Assembly (NCBI GenBank): GCA_009937425.1
Contig: JAACFO010000005.1
Location: forward strand, 1 to 64,000
Direction of reading: 5' to 3'
Source: Gammaproteobacteria bacterium
GTDB taxonomy: Bacteria; Pseudomonadota; Gammaproteobacteria; HK1
DNA length: 64,000 nt
Shown here: positions 6,023 through 47,034 of the stretch, one piece after another
Layout: each line of letters opens with the position of its first letter
Position numbering within the stretch: the first letter of the stretch is position 1
Translations under genes and position numbers: made by a program
Notes under the pieces: generated by a model
What the model was told of the DNA's origin: nothing
Databases searched by the model: none
What the model saw: the letters and a program-made list of their open reading frames with translations, nothing else

Positions 6023-6239
6023 CGGTACCTTGCCTTCTAGAAAGAGTGGTGGGTCAACGGACTATGTGGTCGCGGTCGCTGGAGTCCAAGTAGGACATGT
6101 AGAATCTAGACCCTGGCAGCAAAGCGCGCCACTCTATGTTGCAACGGGGGTATGCTGCAACCCTGGCCGGTCGACGTGGGAGGACCCTGGGGGGCTTCTC
6201 GCCGATGCTTCACGATCTCACACACAGAGGGCCAACGAG

Positions 6240-7238
6240 ATGAGCGACCAGGCACCCATTCGTATCGACGCCCTGCAATATGGCAACTGGTCTGGAAAGA
6301 TTTTCCAGCAGATGCGCGAAGGCGGCGTGGATGCCGTTCACGTAACCATTTGCTACCACGGCAATTTTCGCGACACGGTCACCAATATCGAAGATTGGAA
6401 TCGTCTTTTTGAACGCCACGCAGACTTGATCGTGCACGGACGGTGGGCCGACGACGTCCACGAGGCGCGTCGAAGCGACCGCACCGCCATATTTTTCGGA
6501 TTTCAGAATTGCTCGCCCATTGAGGAAGACATCGGTCTGGTGGAGATTTGCCACGCACTCGGCGTGCGATTCATGCAGCTCTCTTATAACAACCAGTCGT
6601 TGCTGGCCACCGGCTGTTATGAGTCCGAGGATCCAGGCATTACCCGCATGGGACGCGCCGTAGTCAAAGAGATGAACCGGGTTGGGCTGGTCGTCGACAT
6701 GTCGCACTCGGCGGAACGCTCGACCTTGGACGCTATCGAAGTTTCCGAGCGCCCGATAGCGATCACCCACGCCAACCCGAGCACCTGGCACCCGGCGCGC
6801 CGCAACAAATCCGACCGGCTGCTGACGGCGCTGGCCGAATCCGGCGGGATGCTCGGGTTGTCACTGTATCCACACCACCTTCTCGGTGGTTCGGACTGCA
6901 CCTTGAGCAGTTTCTGTACCATGGTGGCGCGGCTGGTCGACAAAATTGGCATAAGCCACGTGGGGATCGGATCGGATCTCTGCCAGGACCAGCCCGACTC
7001 CGTGGTCGAGTGGATGCGCAGCGGGCGCTGGACGAAGCAGGTGGATTTCGGCGAGGGATCACAAGACAACGCCGGCTTCCCATCGCAACCGCAATGGTTT
7101 CGTGACAACCGCGACTTTCCAAATCTGGACCAGGGACTGGCGTCAGCGGGATTTTCGCAGCAGGAGGTGGCTATGATTGCCGGCCAGAACTGGCTCGATT
7201 TTTTCGAGCGTTCCTTCGGACCCAGGTCCTCTGGCTAG
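6240..7238 (+). CDS. Membrane-dipeptidase-like (peptidase M19) protein with altered zinc site
   Basis: The 332-residue protein is an M19 TIM-barrel protein. The two conserved histidine regions are DMSHS (H156) and ITHAN (H177), the arginine motif is RRNKSD (187-191) and the late aspartate is in GIGSD. The N-terminal HxD pair of renal-type dipeptidases is replaced (IDALQYGNW, residues 9-17) and the bridging glutamate is Gln89 (FGFQN). The same GFQN pattern occurs, as I recall, in M19 proteins beside dimethylglycine/sarcosine genes in Pseudomonas, so this is probably a distinct subfamily with another substrate. The start at 6240 has AGAGG upstream; the open frame extends to 6030 without support. 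It converges with the LysR gene, overlapping by 4 bases. Confidence 0.82.
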   Translation: MSDQAPIRIDALQYGNWSGKIFQQMREGGVDAVHVTICYHGNFRDTVTNIEDWNRLFERHADLIVHGRWADDVHEARRSDRTAIFFGFQNCSPIEEDIGLVEICHALGVRFMQLSYNNQSLLATGCYESEDPGITRMGRAVVKEMNRVGLVVDMSHSAERSTLDAIEVSERPIAITHANPSTWHPARRNKSDRLLTALAESGGMLGLSLYPHHLLGGSDCTLSSFCTMVARLVDKIGISHVGIGSDLCQDQPDSVVEWMRSGRWTKQVDFGEGSQDNAGFPSQPQWFRDNRDFPNLDQGLASAGFSQQEVAMIAGQNWLDFFERSFGPRSSG

Positions 7239-8098
7239 GTCGTACTCTCCAGTAGCTCATCTTCGATTGCGTCACGCAGTGTGACGACGATCTCCGACGG
7301 ATTTGGAATCGCCGAACGCGCCACGTATACGACCCGCGGCGGCTTGGGAAGCGCAATGCCGGCTTCGACGCATCCCGGGCGCAGGTTGCGGCGATTGATA
7401 AGCGCCAGGCCGAGCCCACTGCGCACCGCATCCGCGACCCCTTCTACGCTCGGGCATACGAGCACCAGACTGAGTGACCGCCGGGTATCGTTCAGGACTT
7501 CGGCAGCCCATGTTCGGTAGAAGCATCTTTCGTGGAAGGCTATGAACGGCAGTGAGCCGTTTCCCGCTTCCTCAAAATCCTCTGACTGCACCCAGATGAC
7601 ATCATCCCACCAGAGAATCCGGTCTTCCTCGAGAAGCTCCTCCTCGAATAGCTGCATCAGCGCCAAATCGATCTCGCCGCGGCGCAACTGATTGTTCAAT
7701 ATCAAGCTATGGGCCACACGGGATACCAGCGATACGTTGGGATAAACCATCGAGAAGCGCGCGAGCACCCGTGCGATTCCCGATCCGGTGACGTCCTGGG
7801 TGACGCCCAGGCGGATGTGCCCGGAAAGTTCGTTTCGACTGAATAGCGCCACCGCCTCGTCGTGAACACCTACCAGGCGCTCGGCGTAGTTGAGGAGGTG
7901 CGCGCCATCCTCCGTAATAATGAGGCTGCCATCGGTACGCAGGAAGATCGGCCTGCCGATTCTCTCCTCCAGGCGTTTTATTTTGTGGCTGACCGCGGAC
8001 TGGGTGAGGTTCAGCTTGACCGCCGCCCGGGTGACGCTGCCGGCGGTGGCGACCGCCTTCATGGCACGCAGTGATTCGATGTCCAGCCGAATCTTCAT
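7235..8098 (-). CDS. LysR family transcriptional regulator, divergent from the dddP cluster
   Basis: This 287-residue protein is a standard LysR regulator. The winged helix-turn-helix is at the N-terminus (SVTRAAVKLNLTQSAVSHKI, about residues 21-40) and a periplasmic-binding-protein-like effector domain follows (SGHIRLGVTQD onward, RRGEIDLALMQ, GLGLALINRR). It is divergently transcribed from the dddP-headed cluster, the classic arrangement for a LysR protein controlling its neighbour. The intergenic region holds an ATAAT-N9-ATTAT inverted repeat that could be its site. The ligand is unknown; DMSP, acrylate or a cluster metabolite are candidates by position only. Confidence 0.92.
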   Translation of the reverse strand: MKIRLDIESLRAMKAVATAGSVTRAAVKLNLTQSAVSHKIKRLEERIGRPIFLRTDGSLIITEDGAHLLNYAERLVGVHDEAVALFSRNELSGHIRLGVTQDVTGSGIARVLARFSMVYPNVSLVSRVAHSLILNNQLRRGEIDLALMQLFEEELLEEDRILWWDDVIWVQSEDFEEAGNGSLPFIAFHERCFYRTWAAEVLNDTRRSLSLVLVCPSVEGVADAVRSGLGLALINRRNLRPGCVEAGIALPKPPRVVYVARSAIPNPSEIVVTLRDAIEDELLESTT

Positions 8099-8114
8099 AG
8101 TATGACAAAAGTTA

Positions 8115-8133
8115 ATAATCTTGATGAAATTAT
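8115..8133. promoter_or_regulatory. Candidate LysR operator
   Basis: ATAAT and ATTAT flank a 9-base spacer between the divergent LysR and dddP genes, in an AT-rich stretch that contrasts with the flanking GC-rich genes. Partial dyads of this size suit LysR regulators, but the exact T-N11-A form is not present. Confidence 0.35.
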
Positions 8134-8202
8134 GTCGATTTCTTCTGCCTGCAACAACCGATATCTTCAGCCCTGTTTGATGAACTCGGAGACGAAGCGA
8201 CC

Positions 8203-9543
8203 ATGTCAGCCGTACAAGGCTTCAGCATTACGACCCCCAAGATTGACCCTTCGCGGCCGCCCAGGCAGGGGCGCAAACCGGACGGCACACCCGACGATGA
8301 CGATCGGGTCGAAATCGGTCCCACGGATCTCGCCTTCCAGGAATGGGCAGCCCTGGGCCTGGCACCGCCCAATCTCGAAGGCATGCGCCAGGAGCATTTA
8401 CAGCGCGTCTGTCGCCAGCTTCAAACTCGGGATTACGGCGGGATCCTGCTGTTCGACCCACTCAATATTCGCTATGCCACCGACTGCTCCAACATGCACC
8501 TGTGGATTGCCCACAACCCGGCTCGTGCCGTTTTCGTCAGCGCCGACGGCTATGTCATCTTGTGGGACTTTCACCACTGCGGGCATTTATCCGCGCATCT
8601 TCCTCTGGTTTCCGAAGTCCGCGACGGCGCCGGATTTTTCTACTTTCTGGCGGGAGATTCCGAGGAGCAGCAGGCGCGGCAGTTCGCCAACGAGGTCGAC
8701 GACGCTTTGCGTCAGCACGCCGGCCGCAACCGCCGGCTCGCCATCGACAAGATGGAAATATCGGGTATACAGGCGGTTCAGAAACTCGGTATCGAGATTA
8801 AGAGCGGACAACAGGTGATGGAGCACGCCCGCCTGGTCAAAAGCGAGAATGACATCCGTGCCATGCGCTGCGCCCTCGCCACCTGTGAGATTGCCGTGGA
8901 CGCCATGGGTCAAGCGTTGACGCCGGGGATCGCGGAGGTCGAGCTGTGGTCTGTGCTGCATGCAGAAAACATCAAGCGCGGTGGCGAGTGGATCGAGACC
9001 CGCATCCTGAGCTCTGGTCCGCGTACTAATCCGTGGATGCAGGAAGCGGGACCTCGCAAGATCCGCGAAGGCGAGCTGGTGGCCTTCGATACCGACCTCA
9101 TCGGTCCCTACGGCTACTGTGCCGACATCTCCCGTACCTGGTATTGCGGTGACGACAAGCCGAGCGACGAGCAACGCCGTCTATACCAACTAGCTCACGA
9201 ACACATGACGGCCAACATGAACATGCTCGCGCCGGGGGTGTCGTTTCGCGAGCTGACTGAGAAGGGCCACCGCTTACCGGAAAAATTCCGGGCGCAACGT
9301 TACGGTGTCATGGGGCACGGTGTCGGCCTGTGTGATGAATTTCCGGCCATCTACTATCCCGAGGATTTTGTCGATGGTGCTTTCGATTACATCTTCGAGC
9401 CGGGCATGACCATGTGCGTCGAGGTGTATATCGGCGAGGTGGGTGCAAAGGAGGGAGTGAAGCTCGAAGACCAAGTTCTCATAACCGAGACGGGGGTCGA
9501 GAATCTTACCCGTTGCCCGTTCGACGAACGCCTGATGGCCTGA
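8203..9543 (+). CDS. dddP: DddP-type DMSP lyase (M24 family)
   Basis: The 446-residue protein matches the DddP branch of the M24 (creatinase/aminopeptidase P) fold along its whole length. Metal ligands are D296, D298, D308, H372, E407 and E422. These are one residue offset from D295, D297, D307, H371, E406 and E421 that I recall for the structurally studied DddP. The proposed catalytic aspartate (D378 in HGVGLCDE), the active-site tyrosine (Y367) and the NMHLW motif are also kept. DddP cleaves dimethylsulfoniopropionate to dimethyl sulfide and acrylate in the cytoplasm. It heads a tight rightward cluster, 15 bases before a Rieske oxygenase gene and opposite a LysR gene. Related M24 proteins can have other substrates, so the reaction needs assay. 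Confidence 0.82.
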   Translation: MSAVQGFSITTPKIDPSRPPRQGRKPDGTPDDDDRVEIGPTDLAFQEWAALGLAPPNLEGMRQEHLQRVCRQLQTRDYGGILLFDPLNIRYATDCSNMHLWIAHNPARAVFVSADGYVILWDFHHCGHLSAHLPLVSEVRDGAGFFYFLAGDSEEQQARQFANEVDDALRQHAGRNRRLAIDKMEISGIQAVQKLGIEIKSGQQVMEHARLVKSENDIRAMRCALATCEIAVDAMGQALTPGIAEVELWSVLHAENIKRGGEWIETRILSSGPRTNPWMQEAGPRKIREGELVAFDTDLIGPYGYCADISRTWYCGDDKPSDEQRRLYQLAHEHMTANMNMLAPGVSFRELTEKGHRLPEKFRAQRYGVMGHGVGLCDEFPAIYYPEDFVDGAFDYIFEPGMTMCVEVYIGEVGAKEGVKLEDQVLITETGVENLTRCPFDERLMA

Positions 9544-9558
9544 ACCGGAGATCGATTC

Positions 9559-10752
9559 ATGGCAAACGTAATAAAGGACAAGAGCCCTGGGTTGGCGGTG
9601 AGCAATCGCTCTATTCGGATCGAGACAGTAATGGATGGAGTGGATTGCTCTCTTGCCGAGGCACGGGGAATCGGTAACGACGCATACACCCACGACTCCT
9701 TTTTGACATTGGAGCGCGACCGGTTAATGTCGCCGACTTGGACTTGCATTGGTGTCGGCAGCGATGTGCCTGAGCCCGGTGATATCAAACCCGTGGAATT
9801 CATCGGCTTCCCCCTGCTCATGGCGCGCGCGGAGAACGGCGAGGTGCGTGTTTTACACAACGTGTGCAGTCACCGCGGTGTACGTTTAGTAGAACAAGCC
9901 GGGCACGTGAAGCGCGTCATTGTTTGCCCCTATCACTCGTGGTCTTATAACCTGGATGGTACGTTGTTCTCCACACCACATATCGGTGGACAAGGCAAGC
10001 ATGGTTGCGAAGGCTTCGACAAGGAAAAGCACCCCCTGCGCCGCGTGCGCTCGGTGATCTGGTTCGACATGGTGTTCATCAATCTGTCGGGTGACGCGCC
10101 ACCGTTCGAGGACCACATCGCACCAATTGCCGAACGTTGGAAGCACTACGACACGTCCCGTTTTCACCACGGGGGGGCCGACTCGCGCTGGGCACTCGAG
10201 CTCGCCTGCAATTGGAAACTGGCCGTGGAGAATCACAACGATGCTTATCATCTGCCGTGGGTTCATCCTGGACTCAACAGCTACTCCAGATTCGAGGATC
10301 ACTACGAAATCATAGGGGACGACTTTTACGCCGGCCAAGGTAGCAACGCGTACCACCCGCGACGGCCTGAAAACGCGCCGCAACTGCCCCGCTTGCCCGA
10401 CATTCCCAATGAGTGGCAAGGGCGGTCCGAGTACATCGCGATTTTCCCGAACGCCATTGTCGGCATACACATGGACCACTACTGGTCAGTGTGGCTGGAG
10501 CCGGTCGCCTGCAACCGCACCATCGAGCGGATGAACCTGTACTTTGTCGGTGACCAACCGCTCGCCGCTGAGTTCGACATTGTTCGCAAGGTGGTGACGG
10601 CGGAATGGCTGCAGATCTGGAGCGAGGATCAGGAGATCGTCGAGCGGATGCAGCGCGGCCGAAATTCTCCAGCCTTCCAGGGTGGCGTGTTTTCTCCTGC
10701 TCTGGACGCTGCTACGCACCAACTCCACCGTTGGTACGCGCGACGTATGTAG
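9559..10752 (+). CDS. Rieske non-heme iron oxygenase, alpha subunit
   Basis: The 397-residue protein has a Rieske [2Fe-2S] domain with C103-x-H105 and C123-x2-H126 (CPYHSW) and a catalytic domain with the D228-x2-H231-x4-H236 mononuclear iron motif (NDAYHLPWVH). The length and the absence of a beta subunit fit the homotrimeric oxygenase group that includes glycine betaine, stachydrine and carnitine demethylases. These need a separate reductase, which is not seen nearby. It follows the DddP gene by 15 bases, so it is probably co-transcribed and acts on a small methylated or zwitterionic compound. That substrate guess is contextual. Some Rieske oxygenases take aromatics, and this cannot be excluded. 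Confidence 0.9.
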   Translation: MANVIKDKSPGLAVSNRSIRIETVMDGVDCSLAEARGIGNDAYTHDSFLTLERDRLMSPTWTCIGVGSDVPEPGDIKPVEFIGFPLLMARAENGEVRVLHNVCSHRGVRLVEQAGHVKRVIVCPYHSWSYNLDGTLFSTPHIGGQGKHGCEGFDKEKHPLRRVRSVIWFDMVFINLSGDAPPFEDHIAPIAERWKHYDTSRFHHGGADSRWALELACNWKLAVENHNDAYHLPWVHPGLNSYSRFEDHYEIIGDDFYAGQGSNAYHPRRPENAPQLPRLPDIPNEWQGRSEYIAIFPNAIVGIHMDHYWSVWLEPVACNRTIERMNLYFVGDQPLAAEFDIVRKVVTAEWLQIWSEDQEIVERMQRGRNSPAFQGGVFSPALDAATHQLHRWYARRM

Positions 10753-10787
10753 AGAGTCATCACGAGGGGAAGGCATGGAGTCGGACT

Positions 10788-12479
10788 GTGAATAAGGCAT
10801 TCGCCGTTCCCTTGCGCGCGCCCGCCACGGTCATGCGCCTGGAGCGCATGGGGTCCTTTCACCAGACCCGCCTGAGTTTCATGCGCACGCTGCTGCGTCG
10901 ACTGGCCCGGGAGCACTGGTCCGTCGATTGCCCGGTGTGGCGAATCGGCGCCGCCGGCGAAGGGATCGCCGTTTATCGCGCGCGCGGCCCGCAGTCTTCA
11001 TACAGTCTGGTCTGCTTCGCCCATCACCTGGAACCCGAAGAGCGAACCGATCGGGTGATCGCCGAGCGCTGGGATAGCACCTTCACTCTATTCGACGGCG
11101 ATCCCAGCGAGGCCGATCTGACACGCCTGGCGGCTAACGTGCCGTTGCAGGAAGCGGGGCGTTGCTCCGAGCACGAGCTGGTTCTTGCGCGCGCCAACAA
11201 GAGCGTGCGATTGTTCGAACACGTTGTGGAGCGGCTGGCCGAGGGAAATCAGCCCGACACCGATCAAATCGAGGCGGTAGGCTACTTGATGCGCACCACG
11301 GCGGTATACGGTAACGGCAAGTTCGGTGTTGCCGATCGCGGTCGCTTGGTCGGTCGACCCGCGCTCACCGGCCCATTTCAGGCTGAGATGCTGACCGTGT
11401 GGCTGATCCGCGCTTTTACCGTGGATCTCGCCGAGTCTCTGGCAAAAACACGGTCTCCGAATACCGCAGTGGCGCTGAATGACAATATTCGCCGCAAGCT
11501 CGGCGTGGGTAACGCCACCGGCCTCGGCATGGCGCCGTTTCTAATCAACCATCCGCCTTTATTGCATGCCTGGATGCTGGCACGGGAATCGGCCCTGTCC
11601 AGGGTACGGTCGTTATCCAGAGCGGCACCGGAAGCGGTTGAATCATTTTCCGAAATGCTATCGCGGGCGAAACATCAAGTAGCGGGCTGGCGCACCGTTG
11701 ACCCCAGGCAGCAGGTGCGCATTGAAGCCCTCGCTCTCGACCTCGAGCGCCTGTGCGCACGGATTGCCGGAGGCGCACTCCGGGCGAAGGCGCCCTGGGA
11801 TGCTCTTTATCGCTGGGGAGAGGACGCTTTGTCCTTGGAAGGCCAGGAAATGCTCGTATCACTGCTGATCGAGCCCCACGGTGCTTTGGTAGATGAGCTC
11901 GCGGATACTATGAGCGTCGATGAGGACGCCTCGTTTCACATCGACGGGGCGATGTCCATTGCCGGTATAAAAGATCTGATTGACCGTGACTACGCATGGG
12001 CGCTCGAGACGGACTACGCAAGCGCAGAGACGACGGCACGATTCTGGTACGTATCCGAAGAGAAGCTCGAGCCACGGCTCGGCGAGCGGCACGCCGAGCC
12101 AGGGGCTGAGCTGGAGCAGCCATTTGCGGTGGGCCGGGACATCGCCGGTTTGTACCGCGCACTGAGCGCGTTTGCGAGTGATGATTCCCTGGCAAGCCTG
12201 CTGCTCGCCCATCCGGAACATCGGCATACGGCGCGCAGAATTCAGATCGCGGCTCGTTACCCTTACGCGGAGATCCGCGACAATTTGATTTCGGCAACAA
12301 TGCTTCCGATTGATCTACTGCGTTGCAAGCTGTCTTTTTTCGGTGCCACGCGTTTCGACCCGCGTTCCGATCGCTGGGTGCGCATTACCATGTTCAAAGA
12401 CGCTCCATTTCCCGACGAGCTGGGGGAGGTTCCGGCGGACAGCTGGGCGTTTCCGCCGATTCACGGAGATGGCGCGTGA
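10788..12479 (+). CDS. Conserved-looking protein of unknown function in the dddP cluster
   Basis: I do not recognise a family for this 563-residue protein. It is soluble in appearance, with no signal peptide or membrane segment. It is rich in charged residues and helices and has few cysteines. A GTG at 10788 (VNKAFAVPLRAP) has GGAG seven bases upstream and I prefer it; the frame stays open back to 10605 inside the preceding Rieske gene, and ATG 10833 is the other option. Its stop codon overlaps the next start (GTGA). This translational coupling to the DUF3726-like protein suggests the two act together. Position inside the cluster implies a role in the same pathway, perhaps as a partner of the Rieske-GltS fusion. 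Confidence 0.8.
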   Translation: MNKAFAVPLRAPATVMRLERMGSFHQTRLSFMRTLLRRLAREHWSVDCPVWRIGAAGEGIAVYRARGPQSSYSLVCFAHHLEPEERTDRVIAERWDSTFTLFDGDPSEADLTRLAANVPLQEAGRCSEHELVLARANKSVRLFEHVVERLAEGNQPDTDQIEAVGYLMRTTAVYGNGKFGVADRGRLVGRPALTGPFQAEMLTVWLIRAFTVDLAESLAKTRSPNTAVALNDNIRRKLGVGNATGLGMAPFLINHPPLLHAWMLARESALSRVRSLSRAAPEAVESFSEMLSRAKHQVAGWRTVDPRQQVRIEALALDLERLCARIAGGALRAKAPWDALYRWGEDALSLEGQEMLVSLLIEPHGALVDELADTMSVDEDASFHIDGAMSIAGIKDLIDRDYAWALETDYASAETTARFWYVSEEKLEPRLGERHAEPGAELEQPFAVGRDIAGLYRALSAFASDDSLASLLLAHPEHRHTARRIQIAARYPYAEIRDNLISATMLPIDLLRCKLSFFGATRFDPRSDRWVRITMFKDAPFPDELGEVPADSWAFPPIHGDGA

Positions 12480-13138
12480 TCGTCTGCTCCCTCAATGAAA
12501 TTCAAGCCTACGGCCAGCGGGCGGCGCGCGGGGCCGGCATGTCGTGGGGGTTGGCGCAAGAGGCAGGTAAGGCGACCCGCTGGCTTGCCGAGCGCGGACT
12601 ACCCGGGGTGGAATTACTGGTCGGGCTGCTCACGGCCAACGACAAGCGCTCCTATGCGAGCATGGCCCCGGTGATGGCCGACGGCCACTGGCGGGCAGGC
12701 GATGGAGAACTCTGTCCCGTATGCAGCGGGGCGGCGTTGTGCGATCGTATCGATCTCCTGATCCGGGGTGAACAGATCCGCATGAGCGCGCTCGCCTATC
12801 CTCTGCTACTGGCGCCGTTTCTCGATCAATCCTCGCGTTCGGACGCTTCGACTTACGAATTGTGCTGGCAGAAGGCCCGCGTTCTGGTCTGCGCAGACAG
12901 TGTGACACTCGAAGGTGAATCCCAATCGGCATTCCTGGTCGACTTTGCCGGCGAGGTCACTGTGTCCATAAGTGATTGCCCCGAAGCGCTTCCGACCCAC
13001 CAATTTCGCGTGGCCGGGGTAAAGACATCAACCGCCGCCTGGCGCGCGATGGACGCGCTGGCCAAACGCACCTACGTGCCGGCAAGCGAAGAATCCCGGG
13101 CGCTGGGCGCCGGAGCCGGTCGTATCGACAACGACTGA
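12476..13138 (+). CDS. DUF3726-like protein
   Basis: This 220-residue protein starts with a GTG that overlaps the previous stop codon. Its N-terminus (CSLNEIQAYGQRAARGAGMS, then WGLAQEAGKATRWLAERGLPG) fits what I remember of the DUF3726 family. Nothing in the sequence gives a catalytic motif. A CPVCSG stretch and scattered cysteines in the middle could bind metal but lack a clear pair of CxxC motifs. Translational coupling to the 563-residue protein and its position before the Rieske-glutamate synthase fusion tie it to that system. The function is unknown and the family assignment is from memory. Confidence 0.75.
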   Translation: MIVCSLNEIQAYGQRAARGAGMSWGLAQEAGKATRWLAERGLPGVELLVGLLTANDKRSYASMAPVMADGHWRAGDGELCPVCSGAALCDRIDLLIRGEQIRMSALAYPLLLAPFLDQSSRSDASTYELCWQKARVLVCADSVTLEGESQSAFLVDFAGEVTVSISDCPEALPTHQFRVAGVKTSTAAWRAMDALAKRTYVPASEESRALGAGAGRIDND

Positions 13139-13201: not shown

Positions 13202-14815
13202 ATGAACAAGATTGGCATTGTGAAATGGAATGAGCTCGAAGATCGTTCACCCGTGTACGGGCTCGTCGCGGGTGTTGACCTGGTAATCGTCCGTTTTGAC
13301 GACGACGTAAGAGTCCTGTACGGCCGCTGTGCCCACCGGGGAGCCTTGATGGCGGACGGCCACGTGGACGGCAACAATTTGATCTGCGGCGTCCACGGTT
13401 GGGATTACCGTCTCGATACCGGCATCAGCGAATACAACAACAGCGAACGACTGGCGACCTTCAAGGCCTGGGTCGAAGAGGGGCAGGTCTGGGTGGATGA
13501 AGACGAGATCAACGCCTGGGCGTCACAGAACCCGCAACCGTACCAGCGCGATGCCTATCAAGGGCTGTACCAAGATCCTTCGGGAACGGTGGACGAGCCC
13601 CATGTGAAGTTCATTCGCAAGCTGGCCGATGAGGGGCTCACCAAGGTCGGACATCATGGCCCGGCCGCCGCGATGGGCGTACCACGGGACAGTTTGCCCA
13701 AATGGGAAGATCTGCAACTGATTGTCGGGCAGCTTCAGAATCTGCCCCTGCTCGATGACGAACCGGTCGGCACCGATATCACTATCGGCCCGCGCGCCGA
13801 GAGACCACTGCGCCTGGACATCCCCCTGTTCGTTTCCGACATGAGCTTCGGCGCTTTGTCGGAAGAAGCCAAAGTGGCCTTGTCCAAAGGAGCAGCACTT
13901 GCCGGCACGGGAATTTGCTCAGGCGAGGGTGGCATGTTGCCTGAGGAACAGGCCGCTAACTCCCGCTATTTCTATGAGCTCGCCTCGGCACGATTCGGCT
14001 TCTCCTGGGACAAGGTGCAGAAAACCCAGGCTTTTCATTTCAAGGGCGGACAAGGCGCAAAAACCGGAACCGGTGGTCATTTGCCCGGAGCCAAGGTGCA
14101 AGGCAAAATCGCCGAGGTACGTGGGCTGCCGGAAGGGCAATCCGCTATCTCACCCGCGCGCTTCCCGGAGTGGTCCGAGTTAAGTGAATTTCGCGATTTC
14201 GCCGCCGAGGTGCGGACGAAAACCGGCGGCATCCCGGTCGGGTTCAAACTCTCCGCCCAGCACATCGAAAAAGACATCGACGCAGCGCTCGAAGTCGGCG
14301 TCGACTACATCATCCTCGACGGCCGCGGTGGAGGGACGGGCGCGGCTCCCCTGATCTTCAGAGACAATATCTCAGTGCCGACGATTCCTGCCCTGGCCAG
14401 AGCCCGCCGCCATTTGGATAAGTGCGATGCCGCCCATGTCACGCTCATTGCGACCGGAGGCCTCAGGCATCCGGCCGACTTCGCCAAGGCGATGGCTTTG
14501 GGCGCCGACGGCATTGCAGTATCCAATGCGGCCATACAGGCGATCGGGTGCCTTGGCATGCGCGCCTGTCACACGAACAATTGCCCGGTTGGCATCGCGA
14601 CACAGAAACCGCATCTGCGCGCGCGTCTACCGGTGGACATCGCTGCGGAACGCCTTGCACGGTTTTTCTCGGCGGCGGTAGAGTTGATGACAGTGTTGGC
14701 GCGAGCAGCCGGACATCAACACTTGAGCGAATTCACCATCGACGATTTGACCACCTTCAAGTCGGACATGGCGGAACTGACCGGTGTCGCTTACGGTGGC
14801 GTCGGCCGGTCCTGA
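13202..14815 (+). CDS. Fusion of Rieske [2Fe-2S] domain and FMN-binding glutamate synthase domain
   Basis: The 537-residue protein joins two redox modules. Residues 1-105 are a Rieske ferredoxin domain with C43-x-H45 and C62-x2-H65 (CGVHGW). Residues of about 150-530 are a GltB2-like FMN barrel: DMSFGALSEEAKVALSKGA, ICSGEGGM, LDGRGGGTGAAP and the 3Fe-4S motif C450-x5-C456-x4-C461 followed by PVGIATQ. No amidotransferase or GXGXG domain is present. In standard glutamate synthase this barrel reduces an imine made from 2-oxoglutarate and channelled ammonia. Here electrons could enter through the Rieske cluster. It may therefore work as a reductive or oxidative amine-transferring enzyme fed by, or feeding, the upstream oxygenase. 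Role inferred; domains are clear. Confidence 0.9.
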   Translation: MNKIGIVKWNELEDRSPVYGLVAGVDLVIVRFDDDVRVLYGRCAHRGALMADGHVDGNNLICGVHGWDYRLDTGISEYNNSERLATFKAWVEEGQVWVDEDEINAWASQNPQPYQRDAYQGLYQDPSGTVDEPHVKFIRKLADEGLTKVGHHGPAAAMGVPRDSLPKWEDLQLIVGQLQNLPLLDDEPVGTDITIGPRAERPLRLDIPLFVSDMSFGALSEEAKVALSKGAALAGTGICSGEGGMLPEEQAANSRYFYELASARFGFSWDKVQKTQAFHFKGGQGAKTGTGGHLPGAKVQGKIAEVRGLPEGQSAISPARFPEWSELSEFRDFAAEVRTKTGGIPVGFKLSAQHIEKDIDAALEVGVDYIILDGRGGGTGAAPLIFRDNISVPTIPALARARRHLDKCDAAHVTLIATGGLRHPADFAKAMALGADGIAVSNAAIQAIGCLGMRACHTNNCPVGIATQKPHLRARLPVDIAAERLARFFSAAVELMTVLARAAGHQHLSEFTIDDLTTFKSDMAELTGVAYGGVGRS

Positions 14816-14863: not shown

Positions 14864-15138
14864 ATGAGTAGCGATGACACACGGCTGGAATGGTATCGCG
14901 TCGCCGATACGAAGGACGTCCCCCCCGGCCGGGTCAAGACGGTGACGGCGGGCACCCATTCCATGGCACTGACCAATATCGATGGCGATTTCACGGCCAT
15001 GGACAATCGCTGCCCTCACCAGGGCGGACCACTCGGCGAGGGTTCGGTGGAAATCGGTGCCGATGGTCAATGTTGGATGCACTGAATCATGCGGGTCCCT
15101 CCCTGGTGGAGGTCATCACCGACGCAGACTTGATCTGA
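14864..15138 (+). pseudogene. Broken Rieske/ThDP-enzyme fusion gene (internal deletion)
   Basis: The ATG at 14864 opens a Rieske domain (RLEWYRVADTKDVPPGRV, then DNRCPHQGGPLGEG) that stops at 15085 right after its second motif CWMH. Directly beyond, in another frame, translation reads LNHAGPSLVEVITDADLI and stops at 15138. That is a typical C-terminus of acetolactate-synthase-like thiamine diphosphate enzymes. Proteins with a Rieske head on a ThDP enzyme are known to me, so this looks like a gene that lost about 1.6 kb or more between the two pieces, with a frameshift at the join near 15075-15085. A RAYT-type repeat lies 70 bases downstream. The short Rieske ferredoxin of 73 residues could still be made, but lacks the final strands of the fold. 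Confidence 0.75.
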
Positions 15139-15206
15139 CGGGGGCGATTGCAGGAACAGTAGCCTTTTCTCCCGGCGCGATCTTCCCAGTACGGCGCATC
15201 CGTTGC

Positions 15207-15245
15207 AGAAATAAGTATACTGTCCCCGTAATTCCGTCTCCGTAA
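15207..15245 (+). repeat. RAYT/REP-type repeat, copy 2
   Basis: The sequence AGAAATAAGTATACTGTCCC continues as CGTAATTCCGTCTCCGTAA, including the near-direct repeat GTCCCCGTAA / GTCTCCGTAA. It matches copy 1 at 94-122 and is of the kind often found near REP-associated tyrosine transposases. It sits between the broken Rieske/ThDP gene and emrA. Confidence 0.65.
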
Positions 15246-15290: not shown

Positions 15291-16406
15291 ATGAGCGCAT
15301 CCGCGGACAAGTCCGCAAGAGATGCCCGCCATCGTGGTCTTCAGCGTTCGCTGCTGTTGCTGGTGCTATTGGCGGCCGTCGTGCTGGGAATTCGCGAGAT
15401 CCATGACCGGCTCGCCTTCGTGTCGGAATCCGATGCACGGGTGACCGCTAATCTGGTCGTGGTCAGCAGCCGCGTGGCCGGCTGGCTCACGGATGTGAGC
15501 ATCGCCGAAGGCGCACCGGTGAAAACCAAGCAAATTCTCGCCAGAGTCGATGACCGTGACTCGCGCCTGCGCGCGAAACAGCTCGAGGCCCAGCTGGCCG
15601 CGACCGAGTCGGAGAAAGCGCGTTTGCGCGCGGAGCGCGAACTGGTGGATCAGCAGACATCCAGCCGCCTGGCAACCCAGCACAAACATCTGGCAGCGGC
15701 CAACGCATCGGTCACCGCCCTGGAAGCCAGGCTCAAACTGGCGCGATCCGAACTCGTGCGCGCCCAGTCTCTGTACGACAAGCGCGTGAGCACCCGACAG
15801 CAGCTCGAGCAGGCCCGTGCCGAGGCGGACCGTATCGAAGGGGAGCACCGCATGACGATGGCGGAGGCCGAGGAGTCAACAGCAAAGTTGGAAGAGGCCC
15901 GCGCCGAGCGCGCCCGCCTGCAGGTTCTCGATCGCGAGCTCGACGTGCTGGAAAATCGTAAAGTTGAGCTGCGTGTGAAGATTTCACAGCAGAACCTCGA
16001 CATTTCCGATCGCAGTATCCGCAGTCCTACTTCCGGCGTAGTCGACCGGGTATTCGTCGAGCCCGGCGAGTACGTTACCCCGGGCCAGCGCCTGGCCGTC
16101 GTGCACGATCCGCAAAGCATCTGGGTGGAAGCCAATATAAAGGAGACGGCCATACGCAAGCTGGCCATCGGGCAGAAGGTCGCGATCACCGTGGATGCCT
16201 TTCCCGACGAGACCTTCGAGGGCAAAATCACCACCATCGGCAATTCCACCACCGGCAGCTTCGCCCTGCTGCCAACGCCCAATCCCAGCGGCAATTTCAC
16301 CAAGATAACCCAGCGCCTGCCGGTGAGAATCGGCATCGAACAACGCCAGCAGAAGCTCCGACCAGGCATGATGGTCGAGGTCGAGATTGACATCCGCGAG
16401 CGCTGA
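15291..16406 (+). CDS. HlyD/EmrA-type membrane fusion protein
   Basis: This 371-residue periplasmic adaptor has an N-terminal membrane anchor (SLLLLVLLAAVVLGIREI, about residues 20-38). A half-lipoyl motif (VVSSRVAGWLTDVSIAEG) precedes a long coiled-coil hairpin rich in Arg/Glu/Ala (about 95-225). The second lipoyl half (RSPTSGVVDRVFVEPGEYV) and a beta-barrel (IWVEANIKETAIRKLAIGQ) follow. It would link the inner-membrane pump encoded next to an outer-membrane channel not found in this window. The following emrB-like gene starts inside its last codons, so they are translationally coupled. Export of a cluster metabolite or toxic intermediate is possible but unproven. Confidence 0.9.
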   Translation: MSASADKSARDARHRGLQRSLLLLVLLAAVVLGIREIHDRLAFVSESDARVTANLVVVSSRVAGWLTDVSIAEGAPVKTKQILARVDDRDSRLRAKQLEAQLAATESEKARLRAERELVDQQTSSRLATQHKHLAAANASVTALEARLKLARSELVRAQSLYDKRVSTRQQLEQARAEADRIEGEHRMTMAEAEESTAKLEEARAERARLQVLDRELDVLENRKVELRVKISQQNLDISDRSIRSPTSGVVDRVFVEPGEYVTPGQRLAVVHDPQSIWVEANIKETAIRKLAIGQKVAITVDAFPDETFEGKITTIGNSTTGSFALLPTPNPSGNFTKITQRLPVRIGIEQRQQKLRPGMMVEVEIDIRER

Positions 16407-46113: not shown

Positions 46114-46157
46114 GGTACCGGGTACCGGTGTGCACCAGTCTTGACTTATTTAGGGGG
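46114..46157 (+). repeat. RAYT flanking repeat, left copy
   Basis: GGTACCGGGTACCGG, then TTGACTTATT and GGGGG, matches the right-hand copy at 47192-47227 in the same orientation. The transposase stop codon is inside it. Confidence 0.6.
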
Positions 46158-47034
46158 TCCAGGCGCCTTGGTTGTTTTGGTACCGAATCATGGTGCGCAA
46201 AACGACTGATTCCGACCTGCCGAATCGTCTTGAGATTTCCGCCAATGTCGCTATGCCCTCCTCGATCGCATCGCGGGCGATTGCTGCTCGTGCTTTCGCG
46301 AACCGGCGTTCCCTGCTCGAAGAAGTCAGTTCGTCAGGTGAAATCTCGAGATGCAGGCAATATTGTTCGATGAGCGACTCTAAGGGCGCAACAGTGCAGG
46401 ATACAGCGTCCGGGTCAGGAGACGGCGGGTTTTCGGGCTGATGCCGGTTGGACTTTGTATCGACGTCTGCTGTCCATTCACAATCCGGATCCGGCGGATC
46501 AGCAATGAACTGGGCGAACTGAGCACGGGATCTCGGTTCGTCTTCGCCGAAAATCGATAGAATCAAACTCGTGGTCATCCACGGGACATGGTCTTCGCCC
46601 AGGTATGCTCGATGACTGCTCCACCGATATTCTTCAGGCTTGACCACAATCCCCGCACCCACCGGATTCAGGTGGATGTAACGCGCCAGCGACAATATAT
46701 ATGCGTCGTCCTCCACGAATTTCGCCCAGTGGCGCCGCTCGAATACATGCCCACGTCGACTGTATCGGCGATTGAAGCCCCGGGCGTATTGGGAACCCAA
46801 CCAGCGCATGAGCCTTCCTAAGGGAATTGTGCCCACCTGAGCAGCAAGGTGGATGTGATTGGTCATCCAGCAAAACGCATGCACACGGGTGCCATAGCGC
46901 TCACATCCTTCCGCAATCAGCTTCTCGAGTCGTTGAAAATCCCACTCGTCGACAAAGATAACTTGTCCATTGTTACCCCTGAGAATGACGTGGTAGATGC
47001 CACCTGGCACGTGCAGGCGAGGTTTTCGAGGCAT
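46150..47034 (-). CDS. REP-associated tyrosine transposase (RAYT)
   Basis: The 294-residue protein is a Y1-type HUH transposase. It has the HUH motif H60-x-H62 (TNHIHL) and the catalytic tyrosine in LARYIHLNPV (Y119). The GHVFERRHW motif is typical of RAYTs. The C-terminal third (about 215-294) resembles the DnaA helix-turn-helix region (EEGIATLAEISRRFGRSES). RAYTs are single-copy domesticated transposases that move or shape REP repeats rather than themselves. Direct repeats with a GGTAC core flank it and related repeats are spread through the window. The last codons lie within the left repeat. Confidence 0.9.
   Translation of the reverse strand: MPRKPRLHVPGGIYHVILRGNNGQVIFVDEWDFQRLEKLIAEGCERYGTRVHAFCWMTNHIHLAAQVGTIPLGRLMRWLGSQYARGFNRRYSRRGHVFERRHWAKFVEDDAYILSLARYIHLNPVGAGIVVKPEEYRWSSHRAYLGEDHVPWMTTSLILSIFGEDEPRSRAQFAQFIADPPDPDCEWTADVDTKSNRHQPENPPSPDPDAVSCTVAPLESLIEQYCLHLEISPDELTSSSRERRFAKARAAIARDAIEEGIATLAEISRRFGRSESVVLRTMIRYQNNQGAWTP

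Follow-up and report, generated by a model that had tools for sequence, protein, structure and literature searches.

The interval directly behind a glutamate-synthase-like gene in the window (the whole 64,000-nucleotide stretch of DNA that was analysed, from a gammaproteobacterial contig) raises the question of whether two short pieces of coding sequence, together spanning 14864-15138, are the remains of one gene, and if so how the rest of it was lost. They are very probably a deletion pseudogene, in which both ends of a Rieske/ThDP fusion gene are kept in order and the middle and the reading frame are lost. The surviving 5' part, or head (14864..15076, + strand), corresponds to the first ~71 codons. 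The open reading frame that contains it (14864-15085, 73 aa) matches Pfam Rieske (E 9.4e-14) over profile positions 1-65 of 88; the first Rieske ligand motif, CPH, is retained, and the second, CPWH, is gone. The head is 78-82% identical to the N-termini of the nearest intact Rieske/ThDP proteins (locus L030 and genome G007). The surviving 3' end, or tail (15076..15138, + strand), comprises the last 20 codons and the stop, and reads DALNHAGPSLVEVITDADLI in a different frame from the head. It is ~45-70% identical to Rieske/ThDP C-termini (60-70% in the nearest relatives), which are its best matches among all loci compared. No stop codon is found within the head or within the tail in their respective frames. 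The result of the deletion is a null allele.

The deletion junction is placed at 15075..15076 (+ strand) by comparing head and tail, codon by codon, with L030, L031, L033 and G007. The missing segment corresponds to positions 10658-12371 of L030 (~1714 bp) and to 1711 bp of G007, close to the ~1.6 kb that an earlier note on this DNA had predicted. Both sizes equal 1 modulo 3, which explains the +1 frameshift at the junction. All the near relatives have a head reading ...DGQ-CWL-RCPWHGW, or close to it, and a tail reading ...LDEALAHNGPALVEI.TDA.LI before the stop. In the window, the head reaches TGT TG and the tail restarts with GAT GCA CTG AAT CAT. Microhomology at the deletion ends is 0-1 bp: with an ancestral tail reading LD(E/D)AL, as in the nearest relatives, the ends would overlap by no more than 1 bp, and by up to 4 bp with a tail unlike theirs. 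The earlier note had a Rieske frame ending at CWMH followed by the tail of a ThDP enzyme, and this holds, except that the H of CWMH is not a native Rieske ligand. CWMH consists of the non-ligand Cys of QCW (native sequence QCWLRCPWHGW) plus tail-derived sequence, and the C-x2-H with which the head ends arose by chance at the junction.

To the 5' side lies the intact partner gene, RGltS (13202..14815, + strand), with an N-terminal Rieske domain and an FMN glutamate-synthase-like domain (Pfam Glu_synthase 1.2e-86, Rieske 5.5e-12). Among 80 loci retrieved with RGltS as the query, 34 carry an intact Rieske/ThDP gene (~660 aa) near RGltS, downstream and on the same strand in 30 and in most cases directly behind RGltS. 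In the same family, G007 has an RGltS 84% identical to that of the window, followed by DUF5996 and then by an intact 659-aa Rieske/ThDP gene. The earlier note had made its reading depend on a relative with such a gene at this position; relatives of this kind are present (34 of the 80 loci, and G007), and their gene begins like the head and ends like the tail, as expected from the single ancestral fusion that it proposed. Two further breaks were not counted as decay: that in L042 is a run of N, and a single-base frameshift in the Rieske/ThDP gene of L033 (10780-10830) is either decay or a sequencing error.

In a plasmid collection, the best tblastn hits to the head were four haloarchaeal genes annotated 'thiamine pyrophosphate-binding protein'. 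One of these, from Halorubrum salinarum (WP_173230874.1, 662 aa), has a Rieske domain at its start and ends in ...DGPALVEILTDADPV. The Rieske/ThDP fusion thus exists as a gene family. Over the head, this H. salinarum homologue of the wreck is ~53-57% identical; unlike the window gene it is full-length and intact, and it lacks a glutamate-synthase-like neighbour on that plasmid stretch.

These comparisons suggest that the gene for a ~660-aa enzyme, a Rieske ferredoxin-like domain joined to a pyruvate-oxidase/acetolactate-synthase-like ThDP enzyme, would once have stood directly behind RGltS. A single ~1.71 kb deletion with essentially no repeat at its ends, and so of an illegitimate, end-joining- or slippage-type, would have broken the reading frame and taken out the second Rieske ligand motif together with the three ThDP domains, of which 20 codons at the end are left. 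The loss would be one recent event in a dispensable gene, at a locus prone to shedding downstream accessory genes. Bacterial deletion pseudogenes formed by illegitimate recombination show the same internal deletion, with head and tail in place, a broken frame and no long repeats at the ends. There is no difference of principle between these and the window, which would have been caught early and whose neighbouring accessory gene has parallel deletions in relatives. As a pseudogene the wreck is ordinary in mechanism; its mild interest lies in the enzyme pair, and its use is comparative.

It is improbable that the junction is an artefact of assembly or binning, with the middle of the gene present but skipped, or with two populations joined. 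The assembly is a draft of 320 contigs with 5.08% estimated contamination, as such an artefact would have it; however, the contig is continuous across the region, without N, and the missing middle turns up on no other contig. Neither an intact nor a partial copy of it was found on any contig of the window's genome (G000, assembly estimated 96.5% complete). A search of that genome with the intact L030 protein gave hits only to the head, to two further Rieske stretches, and to ThDP enzymes that are at most 32% identical to it and have no Rieske part. The deletion ends also share almost no sequence, which makes an overlap-based join without a spanning read unlikely.

Even less likely is a deletion by transposition or recombination at the repeat downstream, the mechanism that the earlier note had offered. 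The repeat itself is genuine. A REPIN-like inverted pair occupies 15139..15245 (+ strand), with a degenerate left arm at 15146-15163 and a right arm at 15212-15235 that includes TAAGTATACTGTCCCCG (15212-15228). The 13-mer core GTATACTGTCCCC has three exact copies in the window's genome and ten in G007, against none for a reversed-pattern control, and the window pair aligns with four other copies, making five inverted pairs in two genomes. REPINs are described in PMC3116915. In the window element, too, a dispersed repeat forms an inverted pair, and the genomes have RAYT-like transposases, but its copy number is low, and no cognate RAYT was found in the window's genome. The high copy number and stable hairpin of a REPIN were not seen, with 3 and 10 exact cores and a window copy whose predicted fold is not better than those of shuffled sequences (z -0.86). 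Y1_Tnp has a single match in the genome, a Y1 transposase of RAYT-like type whose tail is a DnaA-C-like helix-turn-helix (46150-47034, - strand). It scores 64.9 bits against NF047646, below the cut-off of 80. This gene was rejected as the RAYT matching the downstream repeat, being flanked by AATAAGTCAA repeats without the TGTCCCC core.

In favour of the repeat as the cause, the element starts just past the stop codon, ~63 bp downstream of the junction, and the intact Rieske/ThDP gene of G007 is followed, ~24 bp after its stop, by the start of a RAYT-like relic that has the same ends. The 59-aa RAYT-like fragment of G007 owes its name to a weak similarity (30-42%) to RAYTs within G007 itself, and is not recognised by Pfam or NCBIfam. 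The relic and the window repeat together indicate that the 3' side of the Rieske/ThDP gene holds such elements in two genera. However, both deletion ends lie within the coding sequence, at least 60 bp outside the repeat, and neither has repeat-end sequence; the element has both its arms and is wholly outside the deletion; and in G007 such an element stands beside an intact gene. The repeat is a neighbour of the deletion and not its demonstrated cause. Further downstream, an HlyD/EmrA-like membrane fusion protein gene (15291..16406, + strand, Pfam HlyD_D23 1.5e-24) is intact and separate from the lost gene.

The deletion pseudogene is probably recent, judging from the substitutions in its head. 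Here dN/dS is 0.10-0.14 against G007, L030 and L031 (64 codons), compared with 0.09-0.28 among those intact genes, with 6 amino-acid changes and 13 synonymous codons private to the window lineage. The low ratio suggests, for this short stretch, that little of the history of the head passed without selection. That the 73-aa head is instead a retained small Rieske-like protein with a function is scarcely credible: dN/dS is still low and the junction restores by chance a C-x2-H at Rieske-like spacing (CPH-x17-CWMH), but a short time since the deletion accounts for the low dN/dS, the native CPWHGW and all later strands are gone, the frame ends right after the H, and no relative has a similar truncated gene.

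The relatives appear to have lost the Rieske/ThDP gene repeatedly, and the loss is probably recurrent, an ordinary decay of an accessory enzyme with the conserved neighbour gene left intact. Among genomes that keep RGltS, about half lack the ThDP gene. A Rieske/ThDP gene more than 50% identical is absent from 28 of 44 RGltS-carrying genomes, and no match to the gene was found in 15 further genomes searched, both sets having been chosen largely because the locus lacks it. On an RGltS tree of 85 rows, the gene is present in 42, absent in 42 and a wreck in one. The tree needs at least 22 changes between presence and absence (shuffled labels give a mean of 28.6, and 1 of 200 shuffles reached so low a count), and the 12-row clade that surrounds the window needs at least 3. 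These counts are inflated by draft genomes and do not separate gain from loss. Absence in other drafts may be partly due to missing contigs, and horizontal gain could be behind some of the patchiness. The relatives compared are represented by one genome per species.

As direct evidence of decay at this place, two close relatives have deletions in the accessory gene DUF5996 behind RGltS. In L032 (9600-9730) only ~10 codons from its start and ~25 from its end are left, fused to each other, and in L036 (5960-6640) it has an internal deletion; both loci lack the Rieske/ThDP gene. The deletion in the window is thus one of several eroding the genes behind RGltS. In relatives without the Rieske/ThDP gene, no further remnant of it was found behind RGltS beyond that of the window, the only remnants being those of DUF5996 in L032 and L036.

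The regular partner of the lost gene is RGltS, sometimes with DUF5996 and a cation/proton-antiporter-like gene, the latter (so named by inspection of its sequence and not by a profile match) being the one recurrent further neighbour of RGltS (20 loci). RGltS orthologues are up to 86% identical to that of the window (L028), and occur in contigs labelled Proteobacteria, Acidobacteriota, Nitrospinaceae, Planctomycetota and others; the ThDP half is also found in haloarchaea. In L007 (G050, a single-contig genome), a copy of RGltS has one in-frame TAG.

Among characterised enzymes, the ThDP part of the intact homologues is nearest to pyruvate oxidase and acetolactate synthase, with scores far below any equivalog cut-off. 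The pyruvate oxidase PoxB (NCBIfam NF006377, PDB 3eya) differs in that the homologues score 394 of the 742 bits of its equivalog cut-off and have an N-terminal Rieske domain added. The intact proteins retain RHEGAAAF, with the catalytic Glu, and GDGG...NN, the cofactor motif of the ThDP enzyme family. On these retained motifs they are plausible ThDP enzymes. It is speculation that the Rieske domain accepts electrons from a ThDP intermediate.

No description of the Rieske/GltS/ThDP pair was found in full-text literature searches. A tentative reading, and one that we would hold rather doubtful, is that antiporter–Rieske/GltS–DUF5996–Rieske/ThDP is an undescribed redox module of two unrelated enzymes, each with its own Rieske domain, in which the ThDP half would be optional and shed repeatedly, the window being one fresh loss. 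The wreck fixes the ancestral gene order and shows the Rieske/GltS-like enzyme kept without the Rieske/ThDP enzyme. It also draws attention to a widespread enzyme pair whose function is open to experiment.

The Rieske/ThDP gene is outside the DddP/Rieske-oxygenase cluster upstream, and the suggestion that this pathway had lost a step is not upheld. The DddP, GbcA-like, M19 and DUF3726 genes never adjoin the RGltS–Rieske/ThDP pair in the relatives seen; the immediate upstream genes of the window adjoin RGltS in none of the 80 loci, and eight DUF3726 or DddP loci from other genomes have neither RGltS nor Rieske/ThDP. These are five loci with U624–DUF3726, mostly with an M19 dipeptidase, and three with DddP homologues.

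Within the upstream region itself, 8203-9543 scores as DddP, a dimethylsulfoniopropionate lyase, with 610.9 bits for NF043017 (cut-off 600), and adjoins a GbcA-like Rieske oxygenase (9559-10752) with a score below the GbcA family cut-off. The M19 dipeptidase, U624 (10605-12479, with no Pfam or NCBIfam match) and DUF3726 genes in 6030-13138 are a conserved group in other genomes. In the window, this M19–U624–DUF3726 group is interrupted by a LysR gene, DddP and the Rieske oxygenase.
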